DNA from: a virus | Reading direction: 5' to 3' (one strand) | DNA: 64,000 nt | Virus record (IMG/VR): IMGVR_UViG_3300035698_027665 | Span: 35,354 to 99,353 of that record | Part shown: positions 1,782-62,979 of the stretch, piece after piece | Layout of the letters: each line of letters begins with the position of its first letter | Position numbering within the stretch: the stretch's first letter is position 1 | Notes under the pieces: generated by a model | The model's database searches: none | Seen by the model: only the letters and a program-made list of their open reading frames with translations | Told to the model about the DNA's origin: nothing | Program-made: the position numbers and the translations under genes

Positions 1782-2396
1782 TTATCCATTATAAGCTGGT
1801 TGTCCCATAAAGGTTTTGTTTTTGTTTCCACCGGGAGAATAAGCTGGTTGTCCCATAAAGGTGTGATTCTGATTACCTTGTTGATTCTGTTGATTCTGAT
1901 TACCTTGTTGATTCTGTTGATTTTGATTACCTTGTTGATTCTGTTGATTTTGATTACCTTGTTGATTCTGGCTTACTTGCTTGCCATATTCAATAACACT
2001 TTTCAATATGTCATCAAACACGTTTTTTAATTCTGGATCAATACTTTGAGACAATTGGCTCAATCTAGATAGAAGCTTTCCCATTTCTTCTATTTTTGCT
2101 TCTTTAGAAGGAGCGGGATTTACATTGCCATGATAATTTTTCGCAACATCGCCAGCAAAGTTTCGAACCCCTGCTGCTGCCTGTCCTATAGAATTCGCCA
2201 GATTTTCATTTAGCGAATTGTTGAAATTTAATATTTTAATTTTATCTTCGTTTTTTTCTGCATAAGCGATAAGATGATCAATATAATGCTCTGCCACTAC
2301 TTGCGTAGAAATGTCGTTTCCCACATAGTAGGATGCGGCTTTTGTTGTTGTATTAACTTCTTTTTCTTTATTGTAAAAATCTTTAAATGTTTTCAT
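1782..2396 (-). CDS. Tagged hypothetical protein with Gln/Asn-rich tandem repeats
   Basis: The 204-residue product starts MKTFKDFYNKEKE, one of the N-terminal FK-type tags described in the findings. A helical middle part (about 15-140) follows, then four copies of a nine-residue NQQ/GNQ unit encoded by 27-bp DNA repeats. Two copies of a (H/K)TFMGQPAY motif close the protein. Low-complexity Gln/Asn segments are often flexible linkers. A virion or internal-protein role is possible but not shown. It is followed on the same strand by the secreted protease gene's 3' end at 2400. Confidence 0.6.
   Translation of the reverse strand: MKTFKDFYNKEKEVNTTTKAASYYVGNDISTQVVAEHYIDHLIAYAEKNEDKIKILNFNNSLNENLANSIGQAAAGVRNFAGDVAKNYHGNVNPAPSKEAKIEEMGKLLSRLSQLSQSIDPELKNVFDDILKSVIEYGKQVSQNQQGNQNQQNQQGNQNQQNQQGNQNQQNQQGNQNHTFMGQPAYSPGGNKNKTFMGQPAYNG
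1865..1972. repeat. Four tandem 27-bp coding repeats
   Basis: Units at 1865-1891, 1892-1918, 1919-1945 and 1946-1972 differ by only a few bases. They lie in frame within the 1782-2396 gene and encode the nine-residue Gln/Asn-rich unit. There are no spacers, so this is a coding tandem repeat and not a CRISPR array. Confidence 0.9.
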
Positions 2397-2399
2397 AGT

Positions 2400-3200
2400 T
2401 CACTCCCAATAGCTTTCTTTTAGATGTAATTCGTGTTCGTATATGGAATAATCTAATTTTAAAAATTTAGTCCATAACTCTAAAACAATACCTTCATTTT
2501 TATATATGAAATCAAGTTTAATATCTTTTTTATTTAATAATCCTGACATTGGCGTAAAATAAGATATCCCATTAAAAGACGCCATAGAATTGTAGTCAAA
2601 CAAAATAGAACTAATTACGCCTACTAATTCGTAATCAGTATTGTAAACTCCCCCTCCTGAATCTCCCTTGACCACGTACATAGAAGTTCTGTATCTTTTA
2701 TTATTTATGGATGTATCTGTTATTTTTCCGGGTATAAACCTTGGCGTGTCTTTATAGCCCACTCCATAAACATCATTCCCAATGTAAAGTTTGGGTGAAA
2801 AATTAATTTTAGCTGTGGGTAAAGGGAATGGTGTAAGAAAGACAATTACAGCCAAATCTAAACTTGGATATCTAGCATATGTTATGTATGGGAAAGAGTG
2901 ATTTGAGCGTTTTGCAAAAACGAACTTTTCATAATATGCTATTTCCAAAAAAGACTTAGTGTTGAGGGCAACAACATGGTCGCAAGTTATCGCTGTGTTT
3001 AGATAAACATTGCGACTTGTCCTTATACTTTTTACGACAACCCCACTCCCACTTCCAGTTATCCGTTTATCAGTTCCAACTAATATATGCACTGATGGAG
3101 ACAAGGATTGTTGATAAAGAACAATGTCTGCTTTTTGAGCATGCAATTTATTATTTGCGGCAAATAAAAACAGAAACAATACTATAATAATCTTGTACAT
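2400..3200 (-). CDS. Secreted trypsin-like serine protease
   Basis: The 266-residue protein has an N-terminal signal peptide (hydrophobic residues 4-15, likely cleavage after LHA at 21). The chymotrypsin-fold triad is visible: His75 in TCDHVV, Asp115 in SLDLAV and Ser181 in GDSGGGV. The C-terminal 50 residues are helical and of unknown role. A phage-encoded exported protease could act on periplasmic or envelope proteins, or be carried on the particle. The gene ends 3 nt from the start of the next minus-strand gene. The AT-rich stretch before its ATG lacks a clear ribosome site. Confidence 0.85.
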   Translation of the reverse strand: MYKIIIVLFLFLFAANNKLHAQKADIVLYQQSLSPSVHILVGTDKRITGSGSGVVVKSIRTSRNVYLNTAITCDHVVALNTKSFLEIAYYEKFVFAKRSNHSFPYITYARYPSLDLAVIVFLTPFPLPTAKINFSPKLYIGNDVYGVGYKDTPRFIPGKITDTSINNKRYRTSMYVVKGDSGGGVYNTDYELVGVISSILFDYNSMASFNGISYFTPMSGLLNKKDIKLDFIYKNEGIVLELWTKFLKLDYSIYEHELHLKESYWE

Positions 3201-3229
3201 AATTTTATATATTATTTAGGAGTAATAAC

Positions 3230-3478
3230 ATGAGTGGAGAAAATTGTTGCAAAAAAAACCCTGATCTTAAAAACGAATTGAATTCTTGCGAAAACGATTG
3301 CAAAAGCACAGGTTTTTTATGGGATTTGTTTGGCGAAAAAGAAAAGACATTTACCTTAAAAGAAGTAAATGTTTTAGTTGAAAAAATAAAGAAGTTTAAC
3401 GCAGGGGCCATTGATGAATACTTGGACAACCACGTAAACGAAGCTATTAAAGAATGGGTTGACACTTACAGTGAGTGA
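3230..3478 (+). CDS. Small Cys-containing hypothetical protein
   Basis: The 82-residue protein has four cysteines near the N-terminus (CCKK, SCEND, CKS) followed by an amphipathic helical half. A TTAGGAG ribosome site lies 8 nt before the ATG. The next gene starts within its last codons. No family was recognised; the cysteines could bind a metal. Confidence 0.6.
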   Translation: MSGENCCKKNPDLKNELNSCENDCKSTGFLWDLFGEKEKTFTLKEVNVLVEKIKKFNAGAIDEYLDNHVNEAIKEWVDTYSE

Positions 3479-4674: not shown

Positions 4675-4967
4675 ACCCTAGTCCAGCAATTACTTTCGAA
4701 GTCGATTTGACACTTGTAAAGAGTGAAAATATAGGACCAGTAACATCCCAAAAGTCAATAGGAATTAAAAGTGCAAATCAAGCGGATAACGCAACAGCAC
4801 CAAATAGAGTTTCTACGTGGCTTCCATCTTCATTAGGTTCATCTAACGTTAATCTTAAACACGGTGAAACATTCACACTTTATGGATTAGAAGCTATTAA
4901 GTTTAGAAATTTGTACGCCGAAGGCTATGCACCAGAAGAAAGAACTTGGGTGACAGTTTCATCATGA
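4671..4967 (+). CDS. Hypothetical protein, possibly structural
   Basis: This 98-residue, Ser/Asn-rich, beta-strand-rich protein is sandwiched by ATGA overlaps between two tagged small proteins. An AAGGAG ribosome site lies in the tail of the preceding gene. The composition resembles small virion proteins, but no family was recognised. Confidence 0.6.
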   Translation: MNPSPAITFEVDLTLVKSENIGPVTSQKSIGIKSANQADNATAPNRVSTWLPSSLGSSNVNLKHGETFTLYGLEAIKFRNLYAEGYAPEERTWVTVSS

Positions 4968-5392
4968 TTTCTTTTCACAAACTATTAGAAAAAATGATGG
5001 AATCGGATCAATATGATGACGATTCTCAAGATTCCAACGCATTGCTTAAAAGTGGCGTTGAATCTAAAGCTATGGACATGATACGTTCAGGTAAAGATTT
5101 AGAAGGTTCTTTTTGGCAAAATTTTATTAATATGTGTTCTAATTCTGAATCCATGTCTGATTTGCTAGACGTTCCTAAACACAAAATTGCGGAATGGCCT
5201 TCTAAAATACAAGAGTTATTAGACGAAGTTGAAAATTTGGATTCAGAAGATGTAAAAGAAAAGAAAAAAGTGGTTTCTACTGGTGATAACACTTCGTTAG
5301 CTGATCCAAGCGGACCAGACGGTAGCCAACTAGACCAATCAGCCCCGAATAATGTAACAGGAGAAAAAAATGAGTTTAAGTTCAATACATGA
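4964..5392 (+). CDS. Tagged acidic hypothetical protein
   Basis: The ATG at 4964 overlaps the previous stop and gives an N-terminus MISFHKLLEKMMESD, resembling the tag family. A longer frame from a TTG at 4946 is less likely. The 142-residue product is acidic and helical up to about residue 100, with a Pro/Ser-rich flexible end. It overlaps the next gene by 23 nt. It may belong to a set of internal or scaffold-like proteins. Confidence 0.6.
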   Translation: MISFHKLLEKMMESDQYDDDSQDSNALLKSGVESKAMDMIRSGKDLEGSFWQNFINMCSNSESMSDLLDVPKHKIAEWPSKIQELLDEVENLDSEDVKEKKKVVSTGDNTSLADPSGPDGSQLDQSAPNNVTGEKNEFKFNT

Positions 5393-5696: not shown

Positions 5697-5698
5697 TT

Positions 5699-30025: not shown

Positions 30026-30742
30026 TTACCAACCAATTCTTGGTATAGGAGCATATCCTAACTGTCCCGGACCAACATTGTCGTCACTGTCTACAAGGTC
30101 TTCATTGCCATCTCGTGGAGCAACGATAAAATCTTCATCAACTAGTTTGTTTACGCTTGCTTCCCAAGCTTTAACAGCAGCATCATTGTCATAAACATCG
30201 ACGCTTTCTTTTTTCATTTTTTTATTCATTTTCTTTTTCATGCTTTTCTTCATGCTCTTTTTCATTTTGTTGCTGCATCTTTTGCACATGAATTCACCAT
30301 CATCTGAATCGTCATCAAATTCTGAATCATCATCGTCACCTTCGACTTCATCTCCTGTTTCATCATCTGAATCATCGTCATCATCTGAATCATCGTCAAC
30401 TTCTGAATCATCGTCAACTTCTGAATCATCGTCAACTTCGACTTCATCTCCTGCTTCAATTTCTTCATCATCTGAATCATCATCTGCATCTATGTCTGCA
30501 TCTTTAGCAGTAGCAGGTTTTACAAGTTCATCCCCTGCATCCATTTTCTTTTTCATTTTCTTTTTAGCTGTTTTTTTGGCTTCTTCTAGTTCTGAAAAAC
30601 CAGTACTATCAGTAAACTCATCTTCTTCTAATTCTTGTGTGAGTGAGCCTACAACACCACGTAACGCATTTTTGCTAGATAATCCAATAGGATATGAAAA
30701 GGATTCGTTTAGCTCTTTAAATTTTTTATATGTAAGTAACAT
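30026..30742 (-). CDS. Tagged protein with alternating acidic and basic low-complexity regions
   Basis: The 238-residue protein begins MLLTYKKFKELNES, a tag-like start. It then has a basic KKTAKKKMKKKM patch (about 56-67), a long Asp/Glu/Ser region with repeated EVDDDS units (about 84-150), a CKRC knuckle, a second MKKS/MKKK patch (about 158-178) and a conserved-looking end (GPGQLGYAPIPRIGW). Such charge blocks suit a scaffold or internal head protein that binds DNA. No specific family was recognised. Confidence 0.6.
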   Translation of the reverse strand: MLLTYKKFKELNESFSYPIGLSSKNALRGVVGSLTQELEEDEFTDSTGFSELEEAKKTAKKKMKKKMDAGDELVKPATAKDADIDADDDSDDEEIEAGDEVEVDDDSEVDDDSEVDDDSDDDDDSDDETGDEVEGDDDDSEFDDDSDDGEFMCKRCSNKMKKSMKKSMKKKMNKKMKKESVDVYDNDAAVKAWEASVNKLVDEDFIVAPRDGNEDLVDSDDNVGPGQLGYAPIPRIGW

Positions 30743-38285: not shown

Positions 38286-39452
38286 ATGAATATTCCATCT
38301 ATTTTAGACAACGATTTATATAAATTCACTCAACAACAAGCGGTTCTTTCTCTTTATCCTTTTGAAAATGTTGAATACAACTTCATCAACAGAAGGATGA
38401 CGGATAAATTTACAGATGAATGTGTAGATGCCATTAAAGCAGATATTGCGTCAATGTCACAATTGAAGCTGACGGAAGAAGAAAAAAAATGGTTGCCAAA
38501 TCACATTTTTACTCCTGCGTATAAAGAATTTCTTTCCGCTTACAGGTACAATCCCAATGAAATAATTGTCGACAATGAAGGCGGCAATCTATCTATAAAA
38601 GTAGTAGGTACTTGGATACGCACCATTCTGTGGGAAGTCCCTTTAATGTTTATAGTTAGTGAAAATTGGTACAAATACATAGACGTGAATTGGGATATGA
38701 TTGGACAAGGCTATAAAATAAGAAATAAAAACAATAGACTAAGCGAAGCTAATTGTTTATATGGAGATTTTGGGACACGTCGTAGACGTAATTTTGAAAC
38801 CCAAGATTTAATTGTGGCAGAATCCAAATCGTATAAAGATTCTGGTTTCGTGGGAACTAGCAATGTTTACTTGGCTAAAAAGCATAACGTTAATTTTTTA
38901 GGAACCCAAGCACATGAGTGGTTTATGGCACATTCTGTTTTATCTGGGATGAGACACGCTAATCGCAATGCGTTAGACGCATGGGCAAAGGTTTACCGTG
39001 GAAATTTAGGCATTGCATTAACAGATACTTTTGGGTCGCAACCGTTTTGGGATGACTTTGATCTTTATCTGGCGAAATTGTTTGATGGAGTCAGGCAAGA
39101 TTCAGGCAATCCTTTTGATTTTGCAGATGATGCTATAAAACATTATAAATCATTAAACATTGATCCTGCCACAAAAACTATTGTTTTTAGTGACTCGCTA
39201 AATGTCGACACTGCGATTAGCCTTAACAATCATTGTGCAAAAAGAGGAATAAAATGTTCTTTTGGAATAGGAACTCATTTAACCAATGATTTTAACAATT
39301 CTAAATCTTTAAATATTGTTGTCAAAATGACAAAAATAAACAATGTTCCTGTTGTAAAATTGAGTGATGATCCTTCGAAAGCAACAGGAGATGTAGAAGC
39401 AATTGCAGTGGCCAATTGGGTGTTTTATAACAAACCTTTATTTGGGAATTAA
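38286..39452 (+). CDS. pncB: Nicotinate phosphoribosyltransferase
   Basis: The 388-residue protein begins LDNDLYKFTQQQAVL and has FGTRRRR near 158-164, GTSNVYLAKKHNV, GTQAHEW, DTFGSQPFWDDF, FDGVRQDSGNPFDF and SFGIGTHLTND. These are the family motifs in order. PncB joins nicotinate to PRPP with ATP to give nicotinate mononucleotide, the second step of the Preiss-Handler route. The length fits. NadE follows by 4 nt, so the enzymes are cotranslated. A mononucleotide adenylyltransferase is not seen in the window. Confidence 0.95.
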   Translation: MNIPSILDNDLYKFTQQQAVLSLYPFENVEYNFINRRMTDKFTDECVDAIKADIASMSQLKLTEEEKKWLPNHIFTPAYKEFLSAYRYNPNEIIVDNEGGNLSIKVVGTWIRTILWEVPLMFIVSENWYKYIDVNWDMIGQGYKIRNKNNRLSEANCLYGDFGTRRRRNFETQDLIVAESKSYKDSGFVGTSNVYLAKKHNVNFLGTQAHEWFMAHSVLSGMRHANRNALDAWAKVYRGNLGIALTDTFGSQPFWDDFDLYLAKLFDGVRQDSGNPFDFADDAIKHYKSLNIDPATKTIVFSDSLNVDTAISLNNHCAKRGIKCSFGIGTHLTNDFNNSKSLNIVVKMTKINNVPVVKLSDDPSKATGDVEAIAVANWVFYNKPLFGN

Positions 39453-39456
39453 TATT

Positions 39457-41223: not shown

Positions 41224-42037
41224 TGATGTTGTTTTTATAACGGGTTCTCAACATAAAATTTGTCAAGATTATGCGAGAGCTAATCGGAACATTGACAACC
41301 CTTATGTCATAATTTCAGATGGATGCTCGTCAGCACCAAATACAGATTTTGGTTCTAGATTGTTAGTTAATTCTGCTGATAGTGTTTTAAGTTTAGATAA
41401 TTCTAACGCAGAATCAGTTTTGGAAACTATTGCAATTAAATCTTTTTTATATACTAAAATTTTGGAACTTCATCCAGATTCTCTTTGTGCCACATTGATT
41501 TATTTAAAAATAGAAGGCAATGCTTATAAATCAGTAATGTGCGGGGATGGCGTAATCGCTGGAAAAAGACATAATGGGAGCTTTTTTTTGAAAGAATATG
41601 CTTTTGATTCAAATGCTCCATATTATTTACGATACTCCGAGACAGAGAGTATGAAAAAAGATTTTTCCGAAAAATGTGGGTTGGATATGACTGTTACCAC
41701 ATGGGACATAGACGACAACAACATGGAAACAACAATAAAGAAAACACAATTTGACTTAGATCATCCTTATCAAATAGATGTTTTTCCAATAGAGGAATAT
41801 GAATTTGCTGCCATTTTCAGCGATGGGTTGTCTAGTTTTCGTAAATGGGATTCCGCAGAAACATATAAACAACAAATTCCAATAGATGTGCCTAATGTGT
41901 TTATGCCGTTATTGTCTTTTAAAAGCTGGTCAGGTGACTTTGTACACAGACGTGTGAATAGAGCGTTAAAAGAGTTGAAAAACGAAGGCAGTATGCATTT
42001 AGATGATTTGTCGATTGGTGTTATCAAAAAGGATTAA
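41216..42037 (+). CDS. PP2C-type protein phosphatase
   Basis: From the ATG at 41216, 9 nt after AAGGA, the protein has 273 residues. The PPM/PP2C metal motifs are IISDGCSS near 32-39, CGDGVIAG near 104-111, FSDGLSSF near 200-207 and HLDDLSIGV near the end. It would remove phosphate from Ser/Thr residues, probably of the neighbouring vWA or kinase proteins. Such a phosphatase is the second member of TerY-P triads. It starts inside the nadE end, tying the NAD and signalling genes in one operon. Confidence 0.85.
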   Translation: MHSDVVFITGSQHKICQDYARANRNIDNPYVIISDGCSSAPNTDFGSRLLVNSADSVLSLDNSNAESVLETIAIKSFLYTKILELHPDSLCATLIYLKIEGNAYKSVMCGDGVIAGKRHNGSFFLKEYAFDSNAPYYLRYSETESMKKDFSEKCGLDMTVTTWDIDDNNMETTIKKTQFDLDHPYQIDVFPIEEYEFAAIFSDGLSSFRKWDSAETYKQQIPIDVPNVFMPLLSFKSWSGDFVHRRVNRALKELKNEGSMHLDDLSIGVIKKD

Positions 42038-42041
42038 TAAT

Positions 42042-43745
42042 ATGAAGGTTAAAGAACAAGGCGTAGGAGTTGTTCAATTAAATCCTCAAAGAGATTTTGT
42101 AACAAAAGGCGGCGAAAAAAGCATTTACCGTTTAGGGAATAAGACTTATGCAATATATCATGATAGAAAAGATGTAATACCAGCAGGAAAAGTAGCCGAA
42201 TTATCTGTTTTAACAGATGAACATGTTATTATTCCTGAACATTCACTTTTAGATTCTAAAGATAGGATAATCGGATACAGCATGCCTTTTGTCGATAACG
42301 CTATCCCATTGTGTAAGCTTTTCACTAAGACATATAGACAAAATAATAATATCTCTCAAAAACAAATTATAAATTTAGTAAAAAAACTGCAACTTCTTGT
42401 TTCTTATGTTCATAGCAAAAAAATATTAATTGTTGATTTGAACGAACTTAATTTTTTAATTAAAGATTTTAAGAACGTTTATGCCATTGACACAAACAGT
42501 TATCAAACTCCAAGTTTTCCTGCAACTGCAATAATGGAACAAATAAAAGATCGCCACAATAAAACTTTTTCACAAGAAACTGATTGGTTTTCTTGGGGGA
42601 TTATTTCTTTTCAAATGATAATAGGAATACATCCATACAAAGGGAATCATCCAGAATTCGAAGGGACGCCTGTTGAAAAACTAAATGCACGGATGTTGAA
42701 AAATGTTTCTATTTTAAATAAAAAAGTAAGTACGCCCGGCTCTGCTTATCCTTTAGACAACATTCCTAAAACTCTTAGAAAATGGTATGAAGCTGTTTTT
42801 GACAAAGGAATGAGATTATCACCACCTATTAATTATGAAAACGACATAATTGTCATAACTCCAATTAAAACAATTATCAATAATGGATCAAGGCTTGTTA
42901 TAGACGAATTGTTTTCTTTTAATGATGAAGTGTTAAATGTTTTGTTTAGTTGCGGCAAGGCCATAGTCAAAACTAATAAAAACGTTTATATTAATGGACT
43001 AAAGTACGATCTACCCAATTCCAAGTTGTGTTTAGGCTCAACTCCGACAAAAGGCATACCTGTAGCTGCTTGGATAGAAAATGGTATGGTTGAACTATAC
43101 GATGTACTAAATGCCACTCATGTGCCATGTAGCATGAGTGGGAGTAGCGTTTTCACAGTTGAAAATAGAATTTATGTGCAAAGCAATAACAGCATTGTAG
43201 AAATGAAATTTTTCGAAATGCCAAATAAAATAGCAGCAGCAACTAAAGTTGTGGGCAATGTATTGGACCTACCAAACGCCACACATGTCTTTGATGGTTG
43301 CGTATTGCAGAATCTCATGGGGAGATGGTCTGCTTCCCTGTTTCCAGAAAGTGAAGCGGGTTATCAGTTGTTCTTAGATGACTTGTCGTCTTATACAAAA
43401 ATATTTAATGCTAAATATGAAAATAAGGTTTTAGTGGTGACTGGCATCGATTCTAAAGGAAAATACGACAGACTTGTCTTTAGAATTGATTCATCATATA
43501 AAAAATATGATTGTCGAAAAATAGAAGATGTTGGCCCAACAGATATCAATTTCACAGTCGGCGAACAAGGGGTTTGTGTTTTGATAAACGAAGATGGGAA
43601 ACTAGAAATATTTCGCAATAAAATAGGCGAAATTGTTAGCGAAGTGCCAGATTCTGTTATTGATAAAGATATGAAGCTTTTTCACAATGGAGCGAATATA
43701 TTGTTTGCTAAAAACGAAAAGATTTTCAATATTAAAATGAAATGA
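42042..43745 (+). CDS. Protein-kinase-like protein with C-terminal beta domain
   Basis: The 567-residue product has a kinase-like domain (about 20-275). The catalytic-loop equivalent is IVDLNELNFLI with Asp132 and Asn137, then Asp150 in AIDTNSYQTPSFP in place of DFG, and a TDWFSWGIISFQ helix. The glycine loop and the Lys are poorly visible. The last 290 residues are beta-rich, perhaps a propeller. The NSYQTPSFPATAI and DWFSxGI patterns suggest the kinase of TerY-P-type triads. It follows the phosphatase gene by 4 nt. Activity is likely but not certain. Confidence 0.75.
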   Translation: MKVKEQGVGVVQLNPQRDFVTKGGEKSIYRLGNKTYAIYHDRKDVIPAGKVAELSVLTDEHVIIPEHSLLDSKDRIIGYSMPFVDNAIPLCKLFTKTYRQNNNISQKQIINLVKKLQLLVSYVHSKKILIVDLNELNFLIKDFKNVYAIDTNSYQTPSFPATAIMEQIKDRHNKTFSQETDWFSWGIISFQMIIGIHPYKGNHPEFEGTPVEKLNARMLKNVSILNKKVSTPGSAYPLDNIPKTLRKWYEAVFDKGMRLSPPINYENDIIVITPIKTIINNGSRLVIDELFSFNDEVLNVLFSCGKAIVKTNKNVYINGLKYDLPNSKLCLGSTPTKGIPVAAWIENGMVELYDVLNATHVPCSMSGSSVFTVENRIYVQSNNSIVEMKFFEMPNKIAAATKVVGNVLDLPNATHVFDGCVLQNLMGRWSASLFPESEAGYQLFLDDLSSYTKIFNAKYENKVLVVTGIDSKGKYDRLVFRIDSSYKKYDCRKIEDVGPTDINFTVGEQGVCVLINEDGKLEIFRNKIGEIVSEVPDSVIDKDMKLFHNGANILFAKNEKIFNIKMK

Positions 43746-43747: not shown

Positions 43748-44374
43748 TCACTGTTGACGGGCAAAATGTTGGCCAATTTCTTTTGGATCAGCCGTTGGTT
43801 GCCCTTTGCGAGTAGATTTTTTATTTTTCTTCCCGAATAGTTTTCTAGCTTTTTTTGAAGGCGGGGTTCTTGTATTGAAGACCAAAGTTCTATTATCAGG
43901 GGCAGAAGGTTCAAATGGGGATGCCCAAAAAGTATCTAAATCCGATTCGTTTTTTTTAATATATTTTTTAATTTTGTCGATGTGTTCTTGCAAGCTTTGC
44001 TTTACAAAAGGATGGAAATCCAACTCTTTCCAGTTATCTAAATCCACCCATTTGCTGTTTGTGTGTTCTTTACTTAACTTGGCTTTAAAAGGCTTGTCTA
44101 TAATACAAAGAAAAGAAGTCCATCTTCCACCGTCTTCAATTATTTTATCAAATACTTTTCCATGATTGTATCCACATTCCTCTTTAGTCTCTCTTTTTGC
44201 CCCTTCCAAAGCGGTTTCGCCACTTTTCAAATGTCCTCCCGGTGTAGTCCATTTTCCTGAATGTGAATTAGGCTCATATTGAATTGCTAAAAATTGCTTA
44301 CCATCAGTTAGAAACAATCCTGCACTTTTTTTTATATCTTTTTCAGTTGATTCTAACCAAAGTTTGAAACTCAT
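43748..44374 (-). CDS. Tagged Nudix hydrolase
   Basis: The 208-residue protein begins MSFKLWLESTEKD, a clear FKxWLE tag. It then has a complete Nudix box at 47-69 (GHLKSGE, REtkEE, CGY) that fits GX5EX7REUXEEXGU. The Nudix family cleaves nucleoside diphosphates linked to X, such as NADH, ADP-ribose or oxidised dNTPs. The last 50 residues are basic. A tagged Nudix enzyme could be carried in the virion. It overlaps the upstream tagged gene by ATGA and converges on the kinase gene. Confidence 0.88.
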   Translation of the reverse strand: MSFKLWLESTEKDIKKSAGLFLTDGKQFLAIQYEPNSHSGKWTTPGGHLKSGETALEGAKRETKEECGYNHGKVFDKIIEDGGRWTSFLCIIDKPFKAKLSKEHTNSKWVDLDNWKELDFHPFVKQSLQEHIDKIKKYIKKNESDLDTFWASPFEPSAPDNRTLVFNTRTPPSKKARKLFGKKNKKSTRKGQPTADPKEIGQHFARQQ

Positions 44375-44883
44375 CTTTTCGGTCCTCTTTTCATCAATGC
44401 AGGTTTCAATTTTTCAAGATGTTTATCTGCCGTATGTTTTAACTGATGCATTATATTTCTCACTTCTTTAGTGATGTCAGCAGCAGAAGAACCAGAACAT
44501 CTATTATTCGATTGAATGCTTACAGTTCTTTTGTCTTTATTGTAAAATCCTTTAGAAATCACAAAGCATTCATTTTCTTTATTGAAAGAAACTACGCAAA
44601 CCCATTCCCCATCATCCCAATTTCTAGTAGAAATCAATATTCTAATAGGGAAATCTTCAAATACGTGTTTAATGTGATATTGATCTTGTTTTAAAGCCGC
44701 ACTGACATAACCTAAACTTATTTTAGCAAAAGCCTCTAAAACTTCTTCTTTTCTACTTCTGAAATTGATTTCAACGCTATATCTGCTGGTATTTACAGCT
44801 TCTTCAATAGTAGTATTTTGATCAAAATAATATACTATTTCATTTATTTGGGGAGTGTACAACCATTTTTTAAAACTTGCCAT
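44371..44883 (-). CDS. Tagged hypothetical protein
   Basis: The 170-residue product begins MASFKKWLYTPQINE, a tag of the FKxWL type. A mixed alpha/beta domain follows, with TRNWDDGEWVCVVSF and SGSSAADITKEVRNI, and a basic end (KPALMKRGPKR). No family was recognised. It shares the operon with the tagged Nudix gene. A TATAAATA element at 44954-44961 on the minus strand could be its late promoter. Confidence 0.6.
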   Translation of the reverse strand: MASFKKWLYTPQINEIVYYFDQNTTIEEAVNTSRYSVEINFRSRKEEVLEAFAKISLGYVSAALKQDQYHIKHVFEDFPIRILISTRNWDDGEWVCVVSFNKENECFVISKGFYNKDKRTVSIQSNNRCSGSSAADITKEVRNIMHQLKHTADKHLEKLKPALMKRGPKR

Positions 44884-47593: not shown

Positions 47594-47770
47594 ATGAATA
47601 TTAATTTCAAATTATGGTTGGAAATGTGTGGTACAGGGGCGATATACGATCCCAAGGCGAAGGGGGATTTTAATTGGTGGGGGTCGCCCGGATCAACAGG
47701 AACAACTATTAAAGGCAATGATCCCATTAAAAGAAGCAAAAATAAAAGTAAAAAGAAGAAGAAAAAATGA
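47594..47770 (+). CDS. 58-residue tagged basic protein
   Basis: The product begins MNINFKLWLEMCGTG, one of the clearest FKxWLE tags, and ends in a strongly basic tail (KRSKNKSKKKKKK). Its stop overlaps the next ATG (ATGA). The AT-rich TATATTATAA before the start leaves no ribosome site. The same tag-plus-basic-tail design is seen at 4483-4674. Confidence 0.6.
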   Translation: MNINFKLWLEMCGTGAIYDPKAKGDFNWWGSPGSTGTTIKGNDPIKRSKNKSKKKKKK

Positions 47771-51230: not shown

Positions 51231-52004
51231 ATGCAATTATTAAAAAAAATTATGAATTCTTCAATCCAACCGTTGATTTGGATTAGCGTAATTTTATATT
51301 TCGTTGAGCTTTCTACAGGAAGCGAAAATGGTCGATCAGGATGGTTGGGGTTTCTTTGGATAGAACGATTTATAGCATGTTTTTTTACGATAGAATACTT
51401 AGTTAGATTACACAAAGACAAAACCAAATATGCAATTTCAGCTTTAGGAATTATTGATTTAATTGCTATCATTCCTTTTTGGATTGGTTTTTTCATCCCT
51501 GTCTCAATGTTGCCTTTGATTAGAACCCTACGTATTTTACGACTTTTAAAATTGTTTAGATACAATAGATCGCTTCAACTAATAGCTTTGGCTTATTATA
51601 AATCATTTCATCAATTAAGATTTATAGCATTTGCCACGCTCGTTGTAGGGTTGTTTTGTCTAGCTGGAATATATGAAGTAGAACATAAAGCACAACCAGA
51701 TGTTTACGATGGATTTTTTAATACTTTTTGGTATTTTGTTGTTACCATAACGACAGTAGGTTATGGCGACATGTTTCCGATCACTGTAATAGGAAAGTCG
51801 TTGGCAATGATGCTGTTGTTCATCGGCATAATGACCTTTTCTGGAATAGTTGGTATTGTTGGGACTTCTTTAAATGATGTTTTAAATGATGAAATAAACC
51901 CCGACATTGATCCAATAAAAATGTTCAAAGAAGAAAAAGAAAGACAAAAAGAAATTAAGAAAATAGATAGCAATTGGCAGGATGATCAAGAAACCAAAGT
52001 GTAG
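51231..52004 (+). CDS. Voltage-gated-type potassium channel
   Basis: The 257-residue protein has about six membrane segments. S4 carries regularly spaced charges (Arg98, Arg101, Arg104, Lys107, Arg110 in IRTLRILRLLKLFR). The pore loop has the selectivity filter TTVGYGD at 174-180, followed by S6 (about 188-212). The cytoplasmic tail is charged. These are the complete features of a bacterial Kv channel, which works as a tetramer in the inner membrane. It is likely functional. It may alter membrane potential during infection. An AAGG site lies 10-13 nt before the ATG. Confidence 0.93.
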   Translation: MQLLKKIMNSSIQPLIWISVILYFVELSTGSENGRSGWLGFLWIERFIACFFTIEYLVRLHKDKTKYAISALGIIDLIAIIPFWIGFFIPVSMLPLIRTLRILRLLKLFRYNRSLQLIALAYYKSFHQLRFIAFATLVVGLFCLAGIYEVEHKAQPDVYDGFFNTFWYFVVTITTVGYGDMFPITVIGKSLAMMLLFIGIMTFSGIVGIVGTSLNDVLNDEINPDIDPIKMFKEEKERQKEIKKIDSNWQDDQETKV

Positions 52005-55919: not shown

Positions 55920-56897
55920 ATGAATAAAATAATAAATCTAACTAATCAAAATGAACGTGGCTTAATGGATTGCCAAGATAAAGGCAAGCAAGCCAGTATT
56001 TTGGAATTGCCTACTGGCCCTCATTGTTCTGATGATGGACATGATGGAGAAAAATCAAGTTGGTTAGAAGACGTTTCAAATAAAAAAATAGGTCTAGGAA
56101 GGTCTGCTTTATGCGACCCTATGCAATCTGGTCAAATTGTTAATGACGTAGAGAACCCACAAAGAAATGTAATTTATAGGTATTCCAAAGCGATTCGTGG
56201 TGCTGACGAAGCTATGTTGGATTTGTTTAGAAATCTTGTGGTTTTAGATGTTGATAGCAAAGCTCATCCAGTTCCTATTATTTGGGGGACTCAAGAAAAA
56301 GCAGTGGCCGCTATCATCCAAGAGAACGTCAGAAAAGACAATACTTTGGTGGTAGACAGTATTAGACTTCCTATGTTAGCCATACATTCTACAGACATTC
56401 AATTCAATCAACAGAGATACATATATCACAAAGCTTTAAATTATAAAAGGGGATTAAGAGAAGATAGAAAACCCGGATTTACAGAAAGTGAAAAATATGA
56501 AAGGGATACCGTATTTGGCTTAGCAAGAGGAATTCCTATCGACATATCTTACACTATGGTAGCGTGGACTTTATACGTCGAAGATATGAATCAAATTATT
56601 GAACAGTTAATATTAAAATTCAGTCCTGTAGCATACATAAGTGTAAAAGGAGTGCCACATGAAATTATAGTTAAATTGGAATCAATAGCCAACAATATTG
56701 ATCACGAACCCGGAGATCAAAATTTAAGGGTAATAAAATACCAATTTAACTTTACAGTAGAAACGTATATACCACAACCAGTGGTTCGAAACAAAGCTGT
56801 ATTGAAAACTAAAATAGATATGTTCAATAGTATTGAACCAGAGAAAATAACAGAAGTAATCTCTAGAATTGAAGAAGCAGTTGAGGAATTAAAATGA
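55920..56897 (+). CDS. Tail sheath stabiliser/completion protein (gp15-like candidate)
   Basis: From the ATG at 55920 the protein has 325 residues. The core has IYRYSKAIRGADEAMLDLFRN near 80-100, HPVPIIWGTQEKAVAAI, IRLPMLAIHSTDIQF and AWTLYVEDMNQIIEQLILKFSPVAYI near 217-242. The order (a short conserved helix, VPI-x-(Y/W)-x-(S/T)-(K/Q)-E, LPRI/LPM, then EDxxQIIEQIL-x-F-x-P) follows T4 gp15. gp15 caps the tail and holds the sheath. Its position two genes before the sheath gene is also fitting. Confidence 0.72.
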   Translation: MNKIINLTNQNERGLMDCQDKGKQASILELPTGPHCSDDGHDGEKSSWLEDVSNKKIGLGRSALCDPMQSGQIVNDVENPQRNVIYRYSKAIRGADEAMLDLFRNLVVLDVDSKAHPVPIIWGTQEKAVAAIIQENVRKDNTLVVDSIRLPMLAIHSTDIQFNQQRYIYHKALNYKRGLREDRKPGFTESEKYERDTVFGLARGIPIDISYTMVAWTLYVEDMNQIIEQLILKFSPVAYISVKGVPHEIIVKLESIANNIDHEPGDQNLRVIKYQFNFTVETYIPQPVVRNKAVLKTKIDMFNSIEPEKITEVISRIEEAVEELK

Positions 56898-57130
56898 TCG
56901 AAATAACGAATAGAAAAAAACACCCCGTACAGTTAGTAGTAAGATCAAGGAAAACTCCCCGCTCTTTTACCACTTTAAACATACCGGGAATAGGCAGTGG
57001 TAATAACGTGTATCTTCTAGAAGAAGAATTAATGACCGATATTGTTGAAAGAGTAGAAAAAATGAAATTTATTTCAACAAAAATAATATCCGACCAAGAA
57101 TTAAAAGAAAAAAACAATAAGGGAGAATAA
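56894..57130 (+). CDS. Small protein next to the sheath gene
   Basis: The 78-residue protein begins MIEITNRKKHPVQLVVRS and contains LNIPGIGSGNNVYLLEEE. It overlaps the gp15-like gene by ATGA and ends 2 nt before the sheath gene. The conserved-looking pattern and location suggest a virion component or an assembly factor. No function is known to me. Confidence 0.65.
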   Translation: MIEITNRKKHPVQLVVRSRKTPRSFTTLNIPGIGSGNNVYLLEEELMTDIVERVEKMKFISTKIISDQELKEKNNKGE

Positions 57131-57132
57131 AT

Positions 57133-59556
57133 ATGGCAATTTCAAATGGCTTTCCAGCCGGTAACACAATAAGTCCAAGTGTCCGTATTCTCGAAAAGGA
57201 TTTGAGCTTTATTGCAGCGGCTCAAACCTTACACAGAGCAGGCTTAGTTGGTTTCGCAAGTAAGGGACCGTTCAACACTCCAACCAGAGTGTCGACAAAC
57301 AGACAGCTTCACGGCACTTTTGGGAATCCTCATCCAGCTAGCGGCGATCCATATTTGATCTATGCTGCTGAACAATATTTGTTAGTAGCAAACGAACTAT
57401 ATGTTGTTCGAGTTGGCGATGAGAACAATGCTAGTCCTGATAAAGCAGAAATAGCAGATGTTAATGTTCCTGTCGCTGGTGAGAAAATCACAATACAATC
57501 TGACACTGCTGGCTCTTACGTCTTTGCAGAAGATGGTTTTTTCCGTTGGGCTTTAAATGGCGTTGAATCAACTAAGACACTAGTCGTAGAAGCTGGTACA
57601 TACACAGCTACTGAACTAGCTGCCGAACTAAATGATCAATTGGATTCGGTAAGCTCAACAGGTGCTGTTGTCCTTGCTGGATTTGATGGTATAAGATTTG
57701 TTGTCAATAGCAGTAAAATTGCTGTTGAAACCACCTTTGCTTATGGTCCTGATTCATCATTAGAATTACTATCTGTGCAAGATGCAATTTACGGTCCTTT
57801 GACCAATATAAGCGTCGGAACTTATCACCCTGTTACTAACACTACTAGAAAAACTGGTATAGGTACTGGAATGACTGGTGCTGCTGTTACAGGTACTAAA
57901 GCAAGCTATGGTTCAGGATATGAAATTCCCGGTACATTTAATTTTACTGGACTTGAAGATTTAAACCTCCAAATCGTTGTTGATGGAACAGATAATGTTT
58001 TAGTCGACAATGTGGTTCAGATTGTTGATCTTGCTGACCTTGAAGATATGAGTAATACAATTGAAGAAGTTATTGACGAAATAAATAGTCAATTAACTGC
58101 TTTGACTATTCCCGGTGGCTTCCACGCTACTAGATCAGGTAATAACCTAAAATTGGAAACTCTCCATCAAGGTTCTGATGCAAGAATAAGAATAAAATCT
58201 ACTAGTACAGCCGCAGCAATATTTGGATTTAGCGATGTTGATGATGCCTCTATTACAGGTGCTGCATCTGGAACAAGTCCATCTGGAACAAGTGGTGATG
58301 CTTCCATTGAAACATATGGTTTAGCTATTGGAGAAAACGCTACTGGTTCTACTTATTCCTTCACAATGACAGCCGAAAGTGCTGGCATTGAAGGAAATGC
58401 AACAAGCATACAAGTCATCAATGATGATCGTGAAAACACTTTCCAATTAAGCATTGTCAACAACGGTGTCCAAGTGGAAAGTTGGGGAAATTTAGTTAAA
58501 GATTCTAATAGCAGATTTTATGTAGAAACCTTCTTGACTTTATTCTCTGAATACGTTCGTGTAGAAGACAATTTGTCAACGTCTGCACCACCCAAAGATG
58601 GAACTTATGTTTTATCTGGTGGCACTGATGGACTACCATCTGATCCAGATGATCAGGACACCCTTTTAATGGGCAGCATAGGTGCATTCACAGGAATGCA
58701 AGCCTTGTCTGAACCTGAACAAATTGATATTGACTTAATAGCTGTTCCGGGCCATTCCTCGACAGCAGTCGTATCCGCATTGTTAAATGTGGCTGCTGCT
58801 AGAGGCGATTGTTTGGCGATTATTGATCCGCCATTTGGCTTGACTGTTAATGAAATAACTTCTTGGCAAAACGGTACTCATCCTCTTAACTCCGTAAGGT
58901 TTGACAGCAACTTTGGTTCGCTTTACTGGCCTTGGGTTAAAATTAGAGACAATTACAATGACATAGATGTTTGGGTACCACCATCTGGTTCTGCCATGTC
59001 TGTTATTGCAAGAAGTGACTCTTTATCTGAGCCTTGGTTTGCACCAGCAGGAACAATTAGAGGTCTTGTGCCAAATATTACAGACGTGTTCTCACGTCCA
59101 AGTCTTGGCGAAAGAGATTTAATGTATGGTAATAGAAATGCTATCAACCCAATAGTTCAATTCTCTGGCGATGAAGGCTTCTTAGTTTGGGGTCAAAAGA
59201 CTCTACAAAGAACTCCTACTGCCCTTGACAGAATCAATGTAAGAAGATTGATGTTCTACATTGAAAAAAGAATTAGAGCAAAATCTCGTGAATTGTTGTT
59301 CAATCCTCACGATGAAGCTTTCCGTTCAAGATTTATCGACATTGCAACTGTGATATTGCAAGAAGTTCAAATTGGTAGAGGCATCTTGGCTTACCAAATT
59401 CAAGCAGATGAAGAACTTAATACACCAGATGTTATTGATCGTAATGAGTTTCGTGCAAGAATCGGAATCCAACCTATTCGTGCTGCTGAATTTATCTATA
59501 TTGAATTCAGTGTACACAGAACAGGAAACTTTGGAGAAACTTCCGAAACGTTCTAA
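57133..59556 (+). CDS. Tail sheath protein
   Basis: The 807-residue protein has the N-terminal pattern of sheath subunits (SPSVRILEKDLSFI, GLVGFASKGPFNTPTRVSTNRQL). A large beta-rich insertion follows (about 110-520), then the conserved C-terminal part: IDVWVPPSGSAMSVIARSD, WFAPAG-x-x-RGLV, LWGQKTL-like LVWGQKTLQRTPTALDRINVRRL and FIYIEFSVHRTG. The subunits form the contractile sheath. It is GC-richer than most genes here, as expected for an abundant protein. A GGAG site precedes the ATG. Confidence 0.95.
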   Translation: MAISNGFPAGNTISPSVRILEKDLSFIAAAQTLHRAGLVGFASKGPFNTPTRVSTNRQLHGTFGNPHPASGDPYLIYAAEQYLLVANELYVVRVGDENNASPDKAEIADVNVPVAGEKITIQSDTAGSYVFAEDGFFRWALNGVESTKTLVVEAGTYTATELAAELNDQLDSVSSTGAVVLAGFDGIRFVVNSSKIAVETTFAYGPDSSLELLSVQDAIYGPLTNISVGTYHPVTNTTRKTGIGTGMTGAAVTGTKASYGSGYEIPGTFNFTGLEDLNLQIVVDGTDNVLVDNVVQIVDLADLEDMSNTIEEVIDEINSQLTALTIPGGFHATRSGNNLKLETLHQGSDARIRIKSTSTAAAIFGFSDVDDASITGAASGTSPSGTSGDASIETYGLAIGENATGSTYSFTMTAESAGIEGNATSIQVINDDRENTFQLSIVNNGVQVESWGNLVKDSNSRFYVETFLTLFSEYVRVEDNLSTSAPPKDGTYVLSGGTDGLPSDPDDQDTLLMGSIGAFTGMQALSEPEQIDIDLIAVPGHSSTAVVSALLNVAAARGDCLAIIDPPFGLTVNEITSWQNGTHPLNSVRFDSNFGSLYWPWVKIRDNYNDIDVWVPPSGSAMSVIARSDSLSEPWFAPAGTIRGLVPNITDVFSRPSLGERDLMYGNRNAINPIVQFSGDEGFLVWGQKTLQRTPTALDRINVRRLMFYIEKRIRAKSRELLFNPHDEAFRSRFIDIATVILQEVQIGRGILAYQIQADEELNTPDVIDRNEFRARIGIQPIRAAEFIYIEFSVHRTGNFGETSETF

Positions 59557-59568
59557 AAACAAAAACAA

Positions 59569-59602
59569 TTTTCACCCCCGCTTAATAGCGGGGTGAAAAC
59601 AT
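59569..59602 (+). terminator. Hairpin after the sheath gene
   Basis: A GC-rich stem of about 13 bp with a single bulged C (59569-59581 with 59588-59599) is followed by an A/T-rich tract. It probably reduces readthrough from the sheath gene to the tube gene or stabilises the sheath mRNA. Confidence 0.65.
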
Positions 59603-59619
59603 TTAATAAAGGAGATGAT

Positions 59620-60186
59620 ATGGCTGAACAAGCAATGGGTATTGGAAAACTAGGTGGAGCTAATTTAGTATATAAAAGAAAATTTCGTTGGACATTTAGG
59701 ATTACTGATCTTTGTAATGGCGGAAGTGTCGACGAACACTTTGTAAAATTAGCAGCCCGCCCAAACCTAACAATAGAAGAAACAGAAATTAACTTTTTGA
59801 ATGCCAAAAAGTGGATTCCGGGCAAAGGTGCTTGGGAAACTATTACTGTAACTTACTATGATGTTGCTACCAATGACAATAAAGACCTATGGAACTGGCT
59901 TGCATCTGTGTATGACTACACGGACAATGTAGGACTTAAAATGGGTTCTCGTCAAGGTGACTATGCTGGCAATGCAGAATTAGTTTTGTATGATGGCTGT
60001 GGAACTAGACTTGAAAAATGGAATCTTTATGATGTGTGGCCACAAGCTATGAACTTTGGGGAATTAGACTATAGTACTTCGGAAGAATCTACTATTGAAC
60101 TCACATTAAGATATTCTTCTGTGAAATATGAAAGTCTATGTCCACAGTTTGTTCCACAAGCATGCTGTACTGGTTGCAATATATAA
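59620..60186 (+). CDS. Tail tube protein
   Basis: From the ATG at 59620, after AAAGGAG, the protein has 188 residues. It has YKRKFRWTFRI, KLAARPNLTIEETEINFLNAKKWIPGKGAWE, NAELVLYDGCGTRLEKW, WPQAMNFGELDYS and TIELTLRY, which match the tube protein of T4-like tails (gp19 family). It forms the inner tube of the contractile tail. Its strong ribosome site and hairpins on both sides point to separate control. Confidence 0.92.
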   Translation: MAEQAMGIGKLGGANLVYKRKFRWTFRITDLCNGGSVDEHFVKLAARPNLTIEETEINFLNAKKWIPGKGAWETITVTYYDVATNDNKDLWNWLASVYDYTDNVGLKMGSRQGDYAGNAELVLYDGCGTRLEKWNLYDVWPQAMNFGELDYSTSEESTIELTLRYSSVKYESLCPQFVPQACCTGCNI

Positions 60187-60204
60187 TTAAAATTATATAT
60201 TTTA

Positions 60205-60298
60205 ATTGTTTCTTGTTCTGGAAACAATATCCGTCTATATCACAATTATATACTATTATGGAAGGCTCTTAAAAGAGTCCTTCTATAATAGTATATAA
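60205..60298 (+). promoter_or_regulatory. Two hairpins between the tube genes
   Basis: A short hairpin (60205-60228) is followed by a long one of about 25 bp (60244-60268 with 60272-60298, with a few mismatches). The second ends in an AT-rich tract before the AAAGGAG site of the gene at 60318. It may act as a terminator or stabilise the 3' and 5' ends of two tail mRNAs. Confidence 0.55.
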
Positions 60299-60317
60299 TT
60301 TTTAAAGGAGTTATAAT

Positions 60318-60851
60318 ATGTCTAGAAGTATGGGTTTAGATTTTGGGTTAGAGAATACAGGTTCGTGCATAAAAAGAAAATTTAGATGGTTGCTTAAAAT
60401 AGATGGCATTTCTGCTTTAAATAGCAACACACAAAGTGTAAACGCTTTACCTCCATCTAAAGCAAGCCGTCCTTCTTTGACATTTAAAGAAATGGAAGTG
60501 CAACATTTGATTGAAACGGTTTACTATCCTTCAAAGCCTGAATGGAAACCTATTACTTTAACATTGTTCGATCTCAAAAAGAACAGAAATCCTGTCTTTG
60601 ATTGGATAAAACAAGTTTATGATACTTGCGGTACAGGAAGTTGGAACGTTTCTGTAGGCAATGGATTTAAAAAGAAAGCCACATTGGAAATGTATGACGG
60701 ATGCGGGAATACCATTGAAAGTTGGGAATTCCAAAATGCATGGCCACAATCTATAGACTTCGGAGATTTAGACATGGGTAGTTCAGAATACTCCACGATA
60801 GAAATAACTTTACGTTATGATAGGGCTGTTCTTTTAGAAAATTGTGTTTAA
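60318..60851 (+). CDS. Second tail-tube-type protein (paralogue)
   Basis: The 177-residue protein repeats the tube-family pattern: IKRKFRWLLKI, ASRPSLTFKEMEVQHL, KATLEMYDGCGNTIESWEF, WPQSIDFGDLDMGSSEYSTIEITLRY. It is clearly related to the product of 59620 but different in most positions. It may form the tail tip or the connector between tube and baseplate, like other duplicated tube proteins. It ends directly at the convergent gene at 60852. Confidence 0.85.
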   Translation: MSRSMGLDFGLENTGSCIKRKFRWLLKIDGISALNSNTQSVNALPPSKASRPSLTFKEMEVQHLIETVYYPSKPEWKPITLTLFDLKKNRNPVFDWIKQVYDTCGTGSWNVSVGNGFKKKATLEMYDGCGNTIESWEFQNAWPQSIDFGDLDMGSSEYSTIEITLRYDRAVLLENCV

Positions 60852-61082: not shown

Positions 61083-61167
61083 AATGTAATTATAATAACA
61101 TTGTTATTTGATTTCAATAAATTATTTTAATTTTTTTTAATTGAAATATCAATGTATCAAATTGGAG

Positions 61168-61195
61168 TTTACAAGCGGAGAATGAGTGCTATAAT
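61168..61195 (+). promoter_or_regulatory. Strong sigma70-like promoter
   Basis: TTTACA at 61168-61173 and TATAAT at 61190-61195 are 16 bp apart. The protease gene starts at 61225. Confidence 0.75.
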
Positions 61196-61224
61196 GGCTT
61201 TCATCGATCAACAGGATACAATCC

Positions 61225-61800
61225 ATGAAAACAATTTGCACTCCTTTTCCGTGGCAATGTATTATTGGGGAAAATAGAATTGGAACTTTCGTCAATGAAG
61301 ACATTGTTTTAACAGCTTCCCATGTATGCCCTAAAGATGTAGATTCTATATCTTGTTTAGAGAATAAAGGCATGGCTACTGTATTTTACAGGTCTAAAAC
61401 TTATGACATGGTTTTGATGAAAACAGATTTTAAAGTTAGTATGTTCATCAAATGCGATCAAATCATATTGAAAAATTTTGATACTGTTGAATGCGTTTCA
61501 ATTAAAACCCTCCAAGAGTCTTTAAACAGAAATGTACAAGTAGAATTTTATAAACAAATTGATTTAGAATCTTATTATGATAGTATAGGATTGAAATCTC
61601 ATTACTTAGGACTAAAGGATAAGCCTTTTATATACAAATTTGATAAAATGGAGGGCGACTTTTCTTGTAGCGGCTCGCCTTATTTGAAAAACGATAAATT
61701 AGTCGCTCTATTGATGGCGTCATTGCCATCTACAAATAAAAACGAAAAAAAGTCTTATGGGTTTCCTATACCAAAAGAAATTTTGGAAAAAATAAAATGA
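61225..61800 (+). CDS. Trypsin-like serine protease, non-secreted
   Basis: The 191-residue product has His33 in LTASHVC, Asp61 in YDMVLMK and Ser149 in FSCSGSP, a chymotrypsin-fold triad. The serine motif departs from GDSGGP. There is no signal peptide, so it probably acts in the cytoplasm. An early-type promoter drives it, which suggests action on host proteins early in infection. It overlaps the RNA ligase gene by 4 nt. Confidence 0.78.
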   Translation: MKTICTPFPWQCIIGENRIGTFVNEDIVLTASHVCPKDVDSISCLENKGMATVFYRSKTYDMVLMKTDFKVSMFIKCDQIILKNFDTVECVSIKTLQESLNRNVQVEFYKQIDLESYYDSIGLKSHYLGLKDKPFIYKFDKMEGDFSCSGSPYLKNDKLVALLMASLPSTNKNEKKSYGFPIPKEILEKIK

Positions 61801-62448
61801 AATCATATAAAACAATTCCCGGTCCTAAAAAATCCCCGAAAGAACATTGTATTGCTTTTGACAAATTAGATGGCTCTAATATAAGAGCAGAATGGTCGAA
61901 AAAACAAGGATGGCATAAGTTTGGCACTAGAAAGCAAATGATTGATAAAAATCATAAAGATTTTGGGCAAGCTATAACTGTCTTCATGAATAGCTTATCC
62001 GAAGGAATTGTCAAATCTGTTTTAGATTGCAAGGATTATAAGCAAGTTACGCAAATTACTGCTTTTAGTGAATATCATGGCGAAAACTCCTTTGCAGGAT
62101 ACCATGATCCAGATGACAAAATGCGAACCACTTTAATAGATGTTAATATTTACAAAAAAGGCTTTGTACTTCCTAGAACCTTCATCAGAATTTTTGAAGG
62201 ATTAGACTACCAGAGGTCGTTTACGAAGGCGTTTATAATGATTCTTTTATAAAAGACGTGTATAATGGATGTTACAACGTAAAAGAAGGAGTTGTAGCAA
62301 AAGGTCTATTGCCCGGAAGAAAGCCCCACATAGTCTTTGGTTGTCGAAATGTAAAACCAAATCTTGGTTGGAAAAATTGAAATTAAAATCTGAACAAGAT
62401 GAAAAATATAAAAACATATTAGAAGACAATGTTAGAGAACAACTGTGA
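61797..62448 (+). pseudogene. RNA ligase-like gene broken by two -1 frame changes
   Basis: Frame 1 from 61797 gives the nucleotidyltransferase motif I AFDKLDGSNIRAEW (Lys in KLDGSN) and SEYHGENSFAGYHD, but ends at 62252 in a frame-shifted tail. At about 62201 a -1 shift restores LPEVVYEGVYND and KEGVVAKGLLPGRKP (motif IV). A second -1 shift at about 62356, after an A run, restores VKTKSWLEKLK (motif V) and an end at 62448. Repaired, the protein has about 217 residues and all ligase motifs. Causes could be mutation, sequencing errors in A runs, or programmed shifting. Confidence 0.75.
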
Positions 62449-62454
62449 AATTTA

Positions 62455-62979
62455 TTATATTTTTAAAAATTTATAAATGTCTTTTGGGGAATTTGATGCT
62501 TTAATGACATTGATAGGGATTCCCACATAATACTTTTGTGGATTTATAGTTTCAATGTTGATGTGCTGATGCTCTCCCCATTGAGGATAAATTTTTCCTA
62601 ATCCAATTGCTATTTCCTTAATGGATTTGGGAGATAGCGAAGCTGTTTCGATTTCGTTTCCAAATACTCTATGCCATTTGAAATTAAAGAATCCTATTTT
62701 ACGTGCAGTTTGAAGGTCTTCGAATGCATCTACTTCTTCTTGAGAAAAGCCATAATCAGATTTTAGAACTTCGTCCCAAACATGATATTTTTTATTAACA
62801 ATATCGCTTATGTCTTTTTGTGTTAAATTATGGTTTTTTATTATTTGATGTATGACAGGTTCTTCATGTTGCCCTGAACCATCAAATTCACGTACAATTT
62901 CTATTGCCCCATTGTCTTTTATCCAATAACCAAATGGTATTGTGGGGGAGTTTTCTTGTAACCATCCTTTAAAGTCCAT
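62455..62979 (-). CDS. Tagged hypothetical protein
   Basis: The 174-residue product begins MDFKGWLQENSP, a clear FKxWL tag. A mixed alpha/beta domain follows with IEIVREFDGSGQHEEPVIHQI, then several helices and a beta end. It is next to the NADAR gene on the same strand with a 3-nt gap, so it may be cotranscribed. No family was recognised. Confidence 0.65.
   Translation of the reverse strand: MDFKGWLQENSPTIPFGYWIKDNGAIEIVREFDGSGQHEEPVIHQIIKNHNLTQKDISDIVNKKYHVWDEVLKSDYGFSQEEVDAFEDLQTARKIGFFNFKWHRVFGNEIETASLSPKSIKEIAIGLGKIYPQWGEHQHINIETINPQKYYVGIPINVIKASNSPKDIYKFLKI

Follow-up and report, generated by a model that had tools for sequence, protein, structure and literature searches.

We identified a short N-terminal peptide shared by otherwise mostly unrelated proteins in a stretch of viral DNA of 64,000 nucleotides (the window), which corresponds to bases 35,354-99,353 of the linear IMG/VR virus record IMGVR_UViG_3300035698_027665 (99,353 bases). 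The peptide (hereafter the tag) has the consensus M-x(1-3)-[FW]-[KRN]-[EQD]-[WFY]-[LIVF]..E, and most of the proteins that carry it have no domain match. Its residue-level resemblance to the N-termini of T4 internal head proteins, together with the further features given below, makes it probable (about 85%) that the tag is a T4-type capsid-targeting sequence (CTS), used here on a much larger set of proteins. An earlier inspection of the letters alone (the sequence-only reading) had listed the tag on 11 proteins and proposed the same likeness; the recurrence was confirmed and proved larger than first described.

A tag confined to protein N-termini

In the 99-kb record, 7 called genes have the pattern F[KR]x[WF][LIV] among their first 8 residues, whereas its frequency at interior positions predicts 0.06. 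On a comparison of the kind that the sequence-only reading had proposed, the pattern is thus far more common at N-termini than elsewhere. In six related contigs (GC content 34-56%), the same pattern was found in 3-16 genes each, with 0.3-0.7 expected. Its position is also narrowly set: in related loci (2391 genes in total), 25 genes have the beginning of the pattern at residue 3 and 14 have it at residue 4 (expected, 0.11 each). We then learned iteratively a nine-position profile ([FW]-[KRN]-[EQD]-[WFY]-[LFIV]-[EN]-x-[RNEQ]-E), which at 7 bits or more retrieved 188 N-termini where 14 were expected. When the tested genome was excluded from profile training (hold-out), the profile tagged 10 of the 126 genes of the window's record (0.41 expected), 21/322 in G003 (0.69), 20/294 in G001 (0.83) and 34/834 in LR756511 (3.3); G and L numbers are our handles for related sequences and loci. 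Without hold-out, tagged genes at 8 bits make up 7-12% of the genes in seven contigs and 4% in LR756511. Across 182 N-termini, motif position 0 is aromatic in 99% and position 3 in 98% (partly by construction), and the offset of the motif is mostly 2-3 residues; a hydrophobic residue follows at position 4 in 83%, and Glu is enriched at positions 5-8. The N-terminal enrichment is far beyond chance across sequences of 33-56% GC. Tagged genes did not start transcription units in excess (55% versus 52%), and the first 50 kb of phage Syn9 yielded one weak tag-like candidate (MATFAEFCETK, 5.2 bits).

All of the open reading frames and N-terminal peptides listed in the sequence-only reading were recovered. 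Nine of its 11 cases score at least 11 bits and a tenth, at 47594, is supported by its homologues; the one at 4964 did not hold. The whole-record scan that it had suggested added three tagged genes in the left flank. The tagged genes of the record are as follows (window coordinates unless noted; aa, amino acids; a slash marks the cleavage-like site):

1782..2396, minus strand: MKTFKDFYNKE, 204 aa, C-terminal repeats rich in Gln and Asn; profile 12.9 bits
4483..4674, plus strand: small basic protein MRLLFKQWLEN, 63 aa, GTG start, C-terminus rich in Lys and Arg; profile 17.9 bits
5699..5980, plus strand: MNFNDWVKLHE/N, 93 aa; profile 14.4 bits
21163..21456, minus strand: helix-turn-helix (HTH) protein MAQFREFVEN, 97 aa; HTH_24 6.9e-5
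30026..30742, minus strand: MLLTYKKFKELNE/S, 238 aa, with very acidic stretches and stretches rich in Lys and Met; profile 11.0 bits
34042..34290, plus strand: MKTFIQWAKVN, 82 aa; profile 11.2 bits
43748..44374, minus strand: Nudix hydrolase MSFKLWLE/S, 208 aa; NUDIX 2.4e-13
44371..44883, minus strand: MASFKKWLY...TIEE/AVNTSRYSVEINFR, 170 aa, conserved alpha/beta core; at least 11 bits, 64 non-redundant homologues
47594..47770, plus strand: small basic protein MNINFKLWLEMCGTGAIYDPK, 58 aa, poly-Lys tail; profile 4.2 bits, with tagged homologues
62455..62979, minus strand: orphan MDFKGWLQE/N, 174 aa; profile 16.3 bits
L002:11186-11599 (record 11186), left of the window: MKFREFLIKEG
L003:650-1204 (record 20650), left of the window: MRFKEFILNEN
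L003:14876-15199 (record 34876), left of the window: MKFKLWLENG

Genes were called with a simple script and their start sites are approximate. The caller misses some genes, such as a tagged MSFQQWLEN reading frame in LR756511, so the tag counts are lower bounds; in the window, the proteins at 4483 and 47594 carry the tag though they are outside the gene-call set. We accepted the protein at 47594 because its homologues in L073, L058 and L009 are tagged and score 14-18 bits; a tagged homologue is present in G001 too. The candidate rejected was MISFHKLLEK, read from 4964 within 4946..5392 (plus strand), because its profile score is 1.0 bits and its relatives keep S-F-x-[KR]-L without the second aromatic residue.

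The tag is conserved in several of the families. The orthologues of the HTH protein in G001, G002, L070 and LR756511 are all tagged (12-16 bits), which makes five of the five family members found, and the tag is present in most members of the record 20650 family among the relatives. The protein at 34042 has tagged homologues in G001, G008 and LR756511. That at 30026 has a tagged homologue in G008 (BLAST); by eye rather than by BLAST, N-termini of the form [FY]KxWKxLNES were seen in G002, G003 and G009, with a related form in G001 and a similar one in LR756511. The protein at 5699 resembles weakly a G002 gene at 159219, MKSFHDFVCLKEE. No confident Pfam match was obtained for the 1782 protein, and no relatives were found for the 62455 protein, IMG/VR included. 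Adjoining the latter (62983-63483), a NADAR-domain protein begins with MANWQEYTEHS, which at 3.1 bits is a borderline case of the tag; a NADAR-like gene was also seen by eye near gp23 in LR756511.

Correspondence with the T4 head-targeting and processing system

In the CTS of the T4 internal protein IPIII, residues 4 and 7 mainly govern targeting, and residues 8 and 10 processing (PMC9026906). In the IPIII N-terminus (MKTYQEFIAE), these four residues coincide with the two aromatics of the motif, the hydrophobic residue that follows and the Glu. Further, a profile trained without any T4 sequence, when scored on 231 called T4 genes, ranked IPI 4th, IPIII 7th and IPII 9th. Ranks 1 and 3 went to Dmd and the clamp loader gp62, which we take to be false positives; the profile thus carries information without being clean. 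Second of the 231 was gp61.1 (L175:18966-19130; MKTFKEFIKE-DMVAG, 54 aa), for which no description as a virion protein was found in the literature searched; its N-terminus predicts that it is an overlooked internal head protein.

A cleavage-like site follows the tag. We picked tags on motif positions 0-4 only, without the Glu, and used interior occurrences of the same five residues as the control. A hydrophobic-x-Glu site falls within positions 3-11 in 76% of the tags and 31% of the interior matches, and the residue after the site (P1') is small (S, N, G, A or T) in 60 and 25%, respectively. The family of the protein at 44371 displays this layout most fully (consensus MxxFxxW...LxE...RYSVEVNYRT). 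Among its 64 non-redundant homologues, 63 have [LIVFM]xE in the 11 residues before the core, compared to 7.6% of control windows, and Glu28 is nearly invariant. The RYSVEVN core lies about 14 to 65 residues from the protein start, apart from one outlier at 135 residues that probably reflects a wrong start. In an AlphaFold2 model of the 44371 protein, residues 4-8 form a short helix, residues 9-24 are disordered and the core is confidently modelled from about residue 40 onwards. Fold comparison of this core returned no significant solved relative (best E value 0.011, TM score 0.36), and PDB sequence searches with the 44371 protein and both 2H proteins described below retrieved nothing significant. 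T4 IPI has the same layout, with F4 and F7 followed by ITE19; A20 is the first residue of its solved mature form (PDB 2jub). The major head protein gp23 of T4 carries FGSFLTE/A at the end of a propeptide of 65 residues (PMC9958956); the N-terminus of gp23 in the relatives (MNANxxFLNE-A or similar) also has a hydrophobic-x-Glu site.

The relatives encode a candidate enzyme for this site. A gp21-family protease adjoins gp23 in G002, G003, G004, G008 and LR756511; a second, diverged gp21-like match (3.5e-9) lies far from the head genes in LR756511.1, at 242621-242989. Tagged genes are also enriched in upstream sites like the T4 late promoter, which is TATAAATA, with TAAATA as its core. Within 30 bases upstream of the gene, TAAATA is present for 22% of the tagged and 4% of the untagged genes (about 5-fold, p=3e-15), and a looser form for 41 and 12%, respectively. 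In the window, the T4-late-like ATAAATA is immediately upstream of the HTH gene, TATAAATA is within the 60 nucleotides upstream of the 34042 gene and GATAAATA is immediately upstream of the 62455 gene. The likeness to T4 internal proteins that the sequence-only reading had drawn from one peptide therefore extends to individual residues, the blind recovery of IPI-III, the cleavage-like site, the protease of the relatives and the late-promoter-like sites.

Comparison with known systems places the tag closest to the CTS of IPI, IPII and IPIII (Mullaney and Black, 1996; reviewed in PMC9026906 and PMC9958956). Both are N-terminal sequences of about 10-20 residues with aromatics three apart and a hydrophobic-x-Glu site, both sit on non-homologous, variable cargo, and the relatives studied here have T4-type head genes. 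They differ in scale, with three known cases in T4, possibly also gp61.1, against about 4-12% of the genes per sequence here. In addition, Trp is common at the second aromatic position of the tag, and enzymes or domains such as those described below are not reported as CTS cargo in the literature compared. IPI, IPII and IPIII have all been reported as inhibitors of type IV restriction enzymes (PMC12373910). The ip genes of T-even phages have been found by their signal sequence alone, and at least 10 internal proteins are reported in T-even phages infecting enterobacteria (Repoila et al., 1994, cited in PMC12373910). The T-even repertoire resembles the tagged set in that one conserved signal is borne by interchangeable proteins that are injected and counter host defence, both of which are putative here, yet our group is uncultured, far more diverged and has a larger set per genome. 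In the giant phages phiKZ and SPN3US, the prohead protease likewise removes N-terminal propeptides of internal ejected proteins after Glu, but these belong to another phage lineage, the propeptides are mostly longer than 100 residues and no short shared motif of this kind is described in the passages compared (PMC5694885).

Putative cargo of the tag and its genomic setting

The tagged set includes, as the sequence-only reading had stated, a Nudix enzyme and an HTH protein. The Nudix profile alignment of the 43748 protein starts at residue 16, past the tag. Its G001 orthologue is tagged (MHISFINWLEN), whereas that of LR756511 starts directly at the domain and is untagged, with a separate tagged frame (MSFQQWLENKG) directly before it; the same enzyme therefore occurs with and without the tag. 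Nudix and NADAR proteins of myoviruses have been predicted to be packaged in the head from gene neighbourhoods and fusions (PMC9503650). Here the Nudix protein itself bears a CTS-like peptide, a direct sequence signal for that idea. Beside the tagged Nudix gene, the window encodes (38286-43745) a nicotinate phosphoribosyltransferase and an NAD synthase, then a PP2C phosphatase and a protein-kinase-like gene.

Other enzymes are tagged in the relatives. G002:209286 (MSFKQFLVNE-G) is a 2H phosphoesterase with both HxT motifs, an Acb1 match (1.5e-8) and a weak resemblance to T4 gp57B. Tagged proteins of LR756511 with domain matches include a poly(A) polymerase/CCA-type enzyme, a 2H protein of the tRNA-ligase-CPD type, a protein resembling phosphoribosyltransferases and one with an RNA-repair-type domain (HAD_SAK_1). 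The G001 gene at 171905-173884 (L140:11905-13884) has PAP2 and ArdC N-terminal domains with a second tag-like peptide, YSFTEWMLKLED, between them, as if two tagged proteins had been fused. Fusion or fission is also suggested for the small 47594 protein, whose module (YDPK..GFNWWG..G) forms the C-terminus of proteins of about 1100 residues encoded upstream of the sheath gene in relatives (L018:2109-5438 and L034:2255-5491). At 169016-177625 of G004 (L153), five paralogues, each of about 565 aa, stand in tandem and no fewer than four are tagged; the one tested had no Pfam match.

The source is a T4-like myovirus, as the tail genes at the right end of the window show, all of them outside the tagged set:

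55920, plus strand: T4 gp15-like tail-sheath stabiliser; T4-gp15_tss 9.2e-21 (Pfam)
57133, plus strand: contractile sheath; Phage_sheath_1C 5e-13 (Pfam)
59620 and 60318, plus strand (tail block 55920..60851): two tail-tube-like proteins, assigned from position and resemblance

DNA comparison of the right 24 kb of the window with named phages revealed no close relative, and the best among the sheath matches listed for named phages cover about half of the protein at 31-38% identity. More than 180 IMG/VR contigs have sheath relatives, of which 80 were retained (56-65% identical). The nearest named sequence for two tagged proteins (53 and 45% identity) is LR756511.1, an unannotated uncultured phage of 595,163 bases. 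Directly after the tail tube genes (61225-61800) is a weak trypsin-like match (0.0026, below the Pfam cut-off), and at 51231-52004 an Ion_trans-family channel protein (PF00520, 1.7e-22), which is unusual for a phage.

Alternative explanations and biological meaning

Several observations weigh against a capsid-targeting role. Some tags, such as that at 1782, lack a clean hydrophobic-x-Glu site, and some profile matches are probably false, among them a primase-like start (MAIDFGRFKHW) and the G002 portal, whose N-termini are natural helices. T4 Alt is packaged and does not match the profile. The late-promoter-like enrichment is absent in G008 and there is no significant excess in G009. Finally, the gp21-like prohead protease that the sequence-only reading had suggested looking for outside the window was found beside gp23 in the five relatives but nowhere on the full 99-kb contig, nor in G001. 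As gp23 is missing from both as well, they are probably fragments, and the window's contig probably ends before gp21 and gp23.

The short, degenerate looser cases and the failure of 4964 could suggest that aromatic, Lys-rich N-termini simply arise by chance in an AT-rich genome. We rejected this explanation, to which we attach almost no weight, because the interior-position controls and hold-out training contradict it: the held-out enrichment is 10-30 fold, the same motif recurs at 56% GC and the 2-3 residue offset is strict. Descent of all tagged proteins from one diverged family is very unlikely too. Some tagged genes are indeed true orthologues or tandem paralogues, as the five in G004, but the bodies are unrelated (Nudix, HTH, 2H phosphoesterase, poly(A) polymerase/CCA-type, HAD, ArdC-like) and the tag comes and goes on one enzyme, Nudix. 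Somewhat less remote, though improbable, is an assembly signal for the tail tube, the baseplate or the host membrane rather than the head interior. Several tagged genes are near tail genes in the sheath loci of relatives, and a short, amphipathic helix with aromatic residues might attach to membranes or to components of the tail; against this stand the residue-level match to the T4 head signal, the blind recovery of the T4 internal proteins and the prohead-protease-like site after the tag. Large phages sort proteins inside the cell, and the cargo includes DNA- and RNA-acting enzymes, as might be expected if the tag directed import into a phage nucleus or other compartment during infection. Yet these phages have T4-type gp23 and gp21, and import has no need for a conserved protease-like site or late-promoter-like elements, so we regard it as very unlikely, on a par with common descent.

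For a capsid-targeting sequence, we infer the following course. Late in infection, each tagged protein would be made with a short amphipathic N-terminal arm, whose two aromatics, three positions apart, would dock the protein into the scaffold core while the head assembles. A gp21-type prohead protease would then cut after hydrophobic-x-Glu, between the arm and the folded domain, and the mature protein would stay inside the head to be injected together with the DNA. Carried by about 4-12% of the genes, the device could bring proteins for counter-defence and host takeover into the cell ahead of all phage gene expression. That the cargo acts in counter-defence is reasonable by precedent and from a few domain matches, because T4 IPI-III are reported to inhibit type IV restriction and the signal has long served to find internal proteins of T-even phages. 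Whether one head-loading signal defines a modular injected kit is, in our judgment, evenly balanced. Such a kit would have roughly 10-35 proteins, among them enzymes that are anti-CBASS-like (directed at the cyclic-oligonucleotide-based antiphage signaling system) or anti-restriction-like or that act on NAD/ADP-ribose or in RNA repair, all working before phage transcription; the injected proteome, including unrecognised members like T4 gp61.1, would then be readable from sequence.

No function is assigned to most proteins of huge phages. Should the tag mark proteins that are loaded into the head and injected, dozens of such unassigned genes per genome would fall into one functional class and candidates for counter-defence in the first minute of infection would be named. 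The signal mapped in T4 would also extend to a diverged, uncultured group of phages. A portable loading peptide of known consensus could, in addition, serve in practice to load proteins of choice into phage heads.

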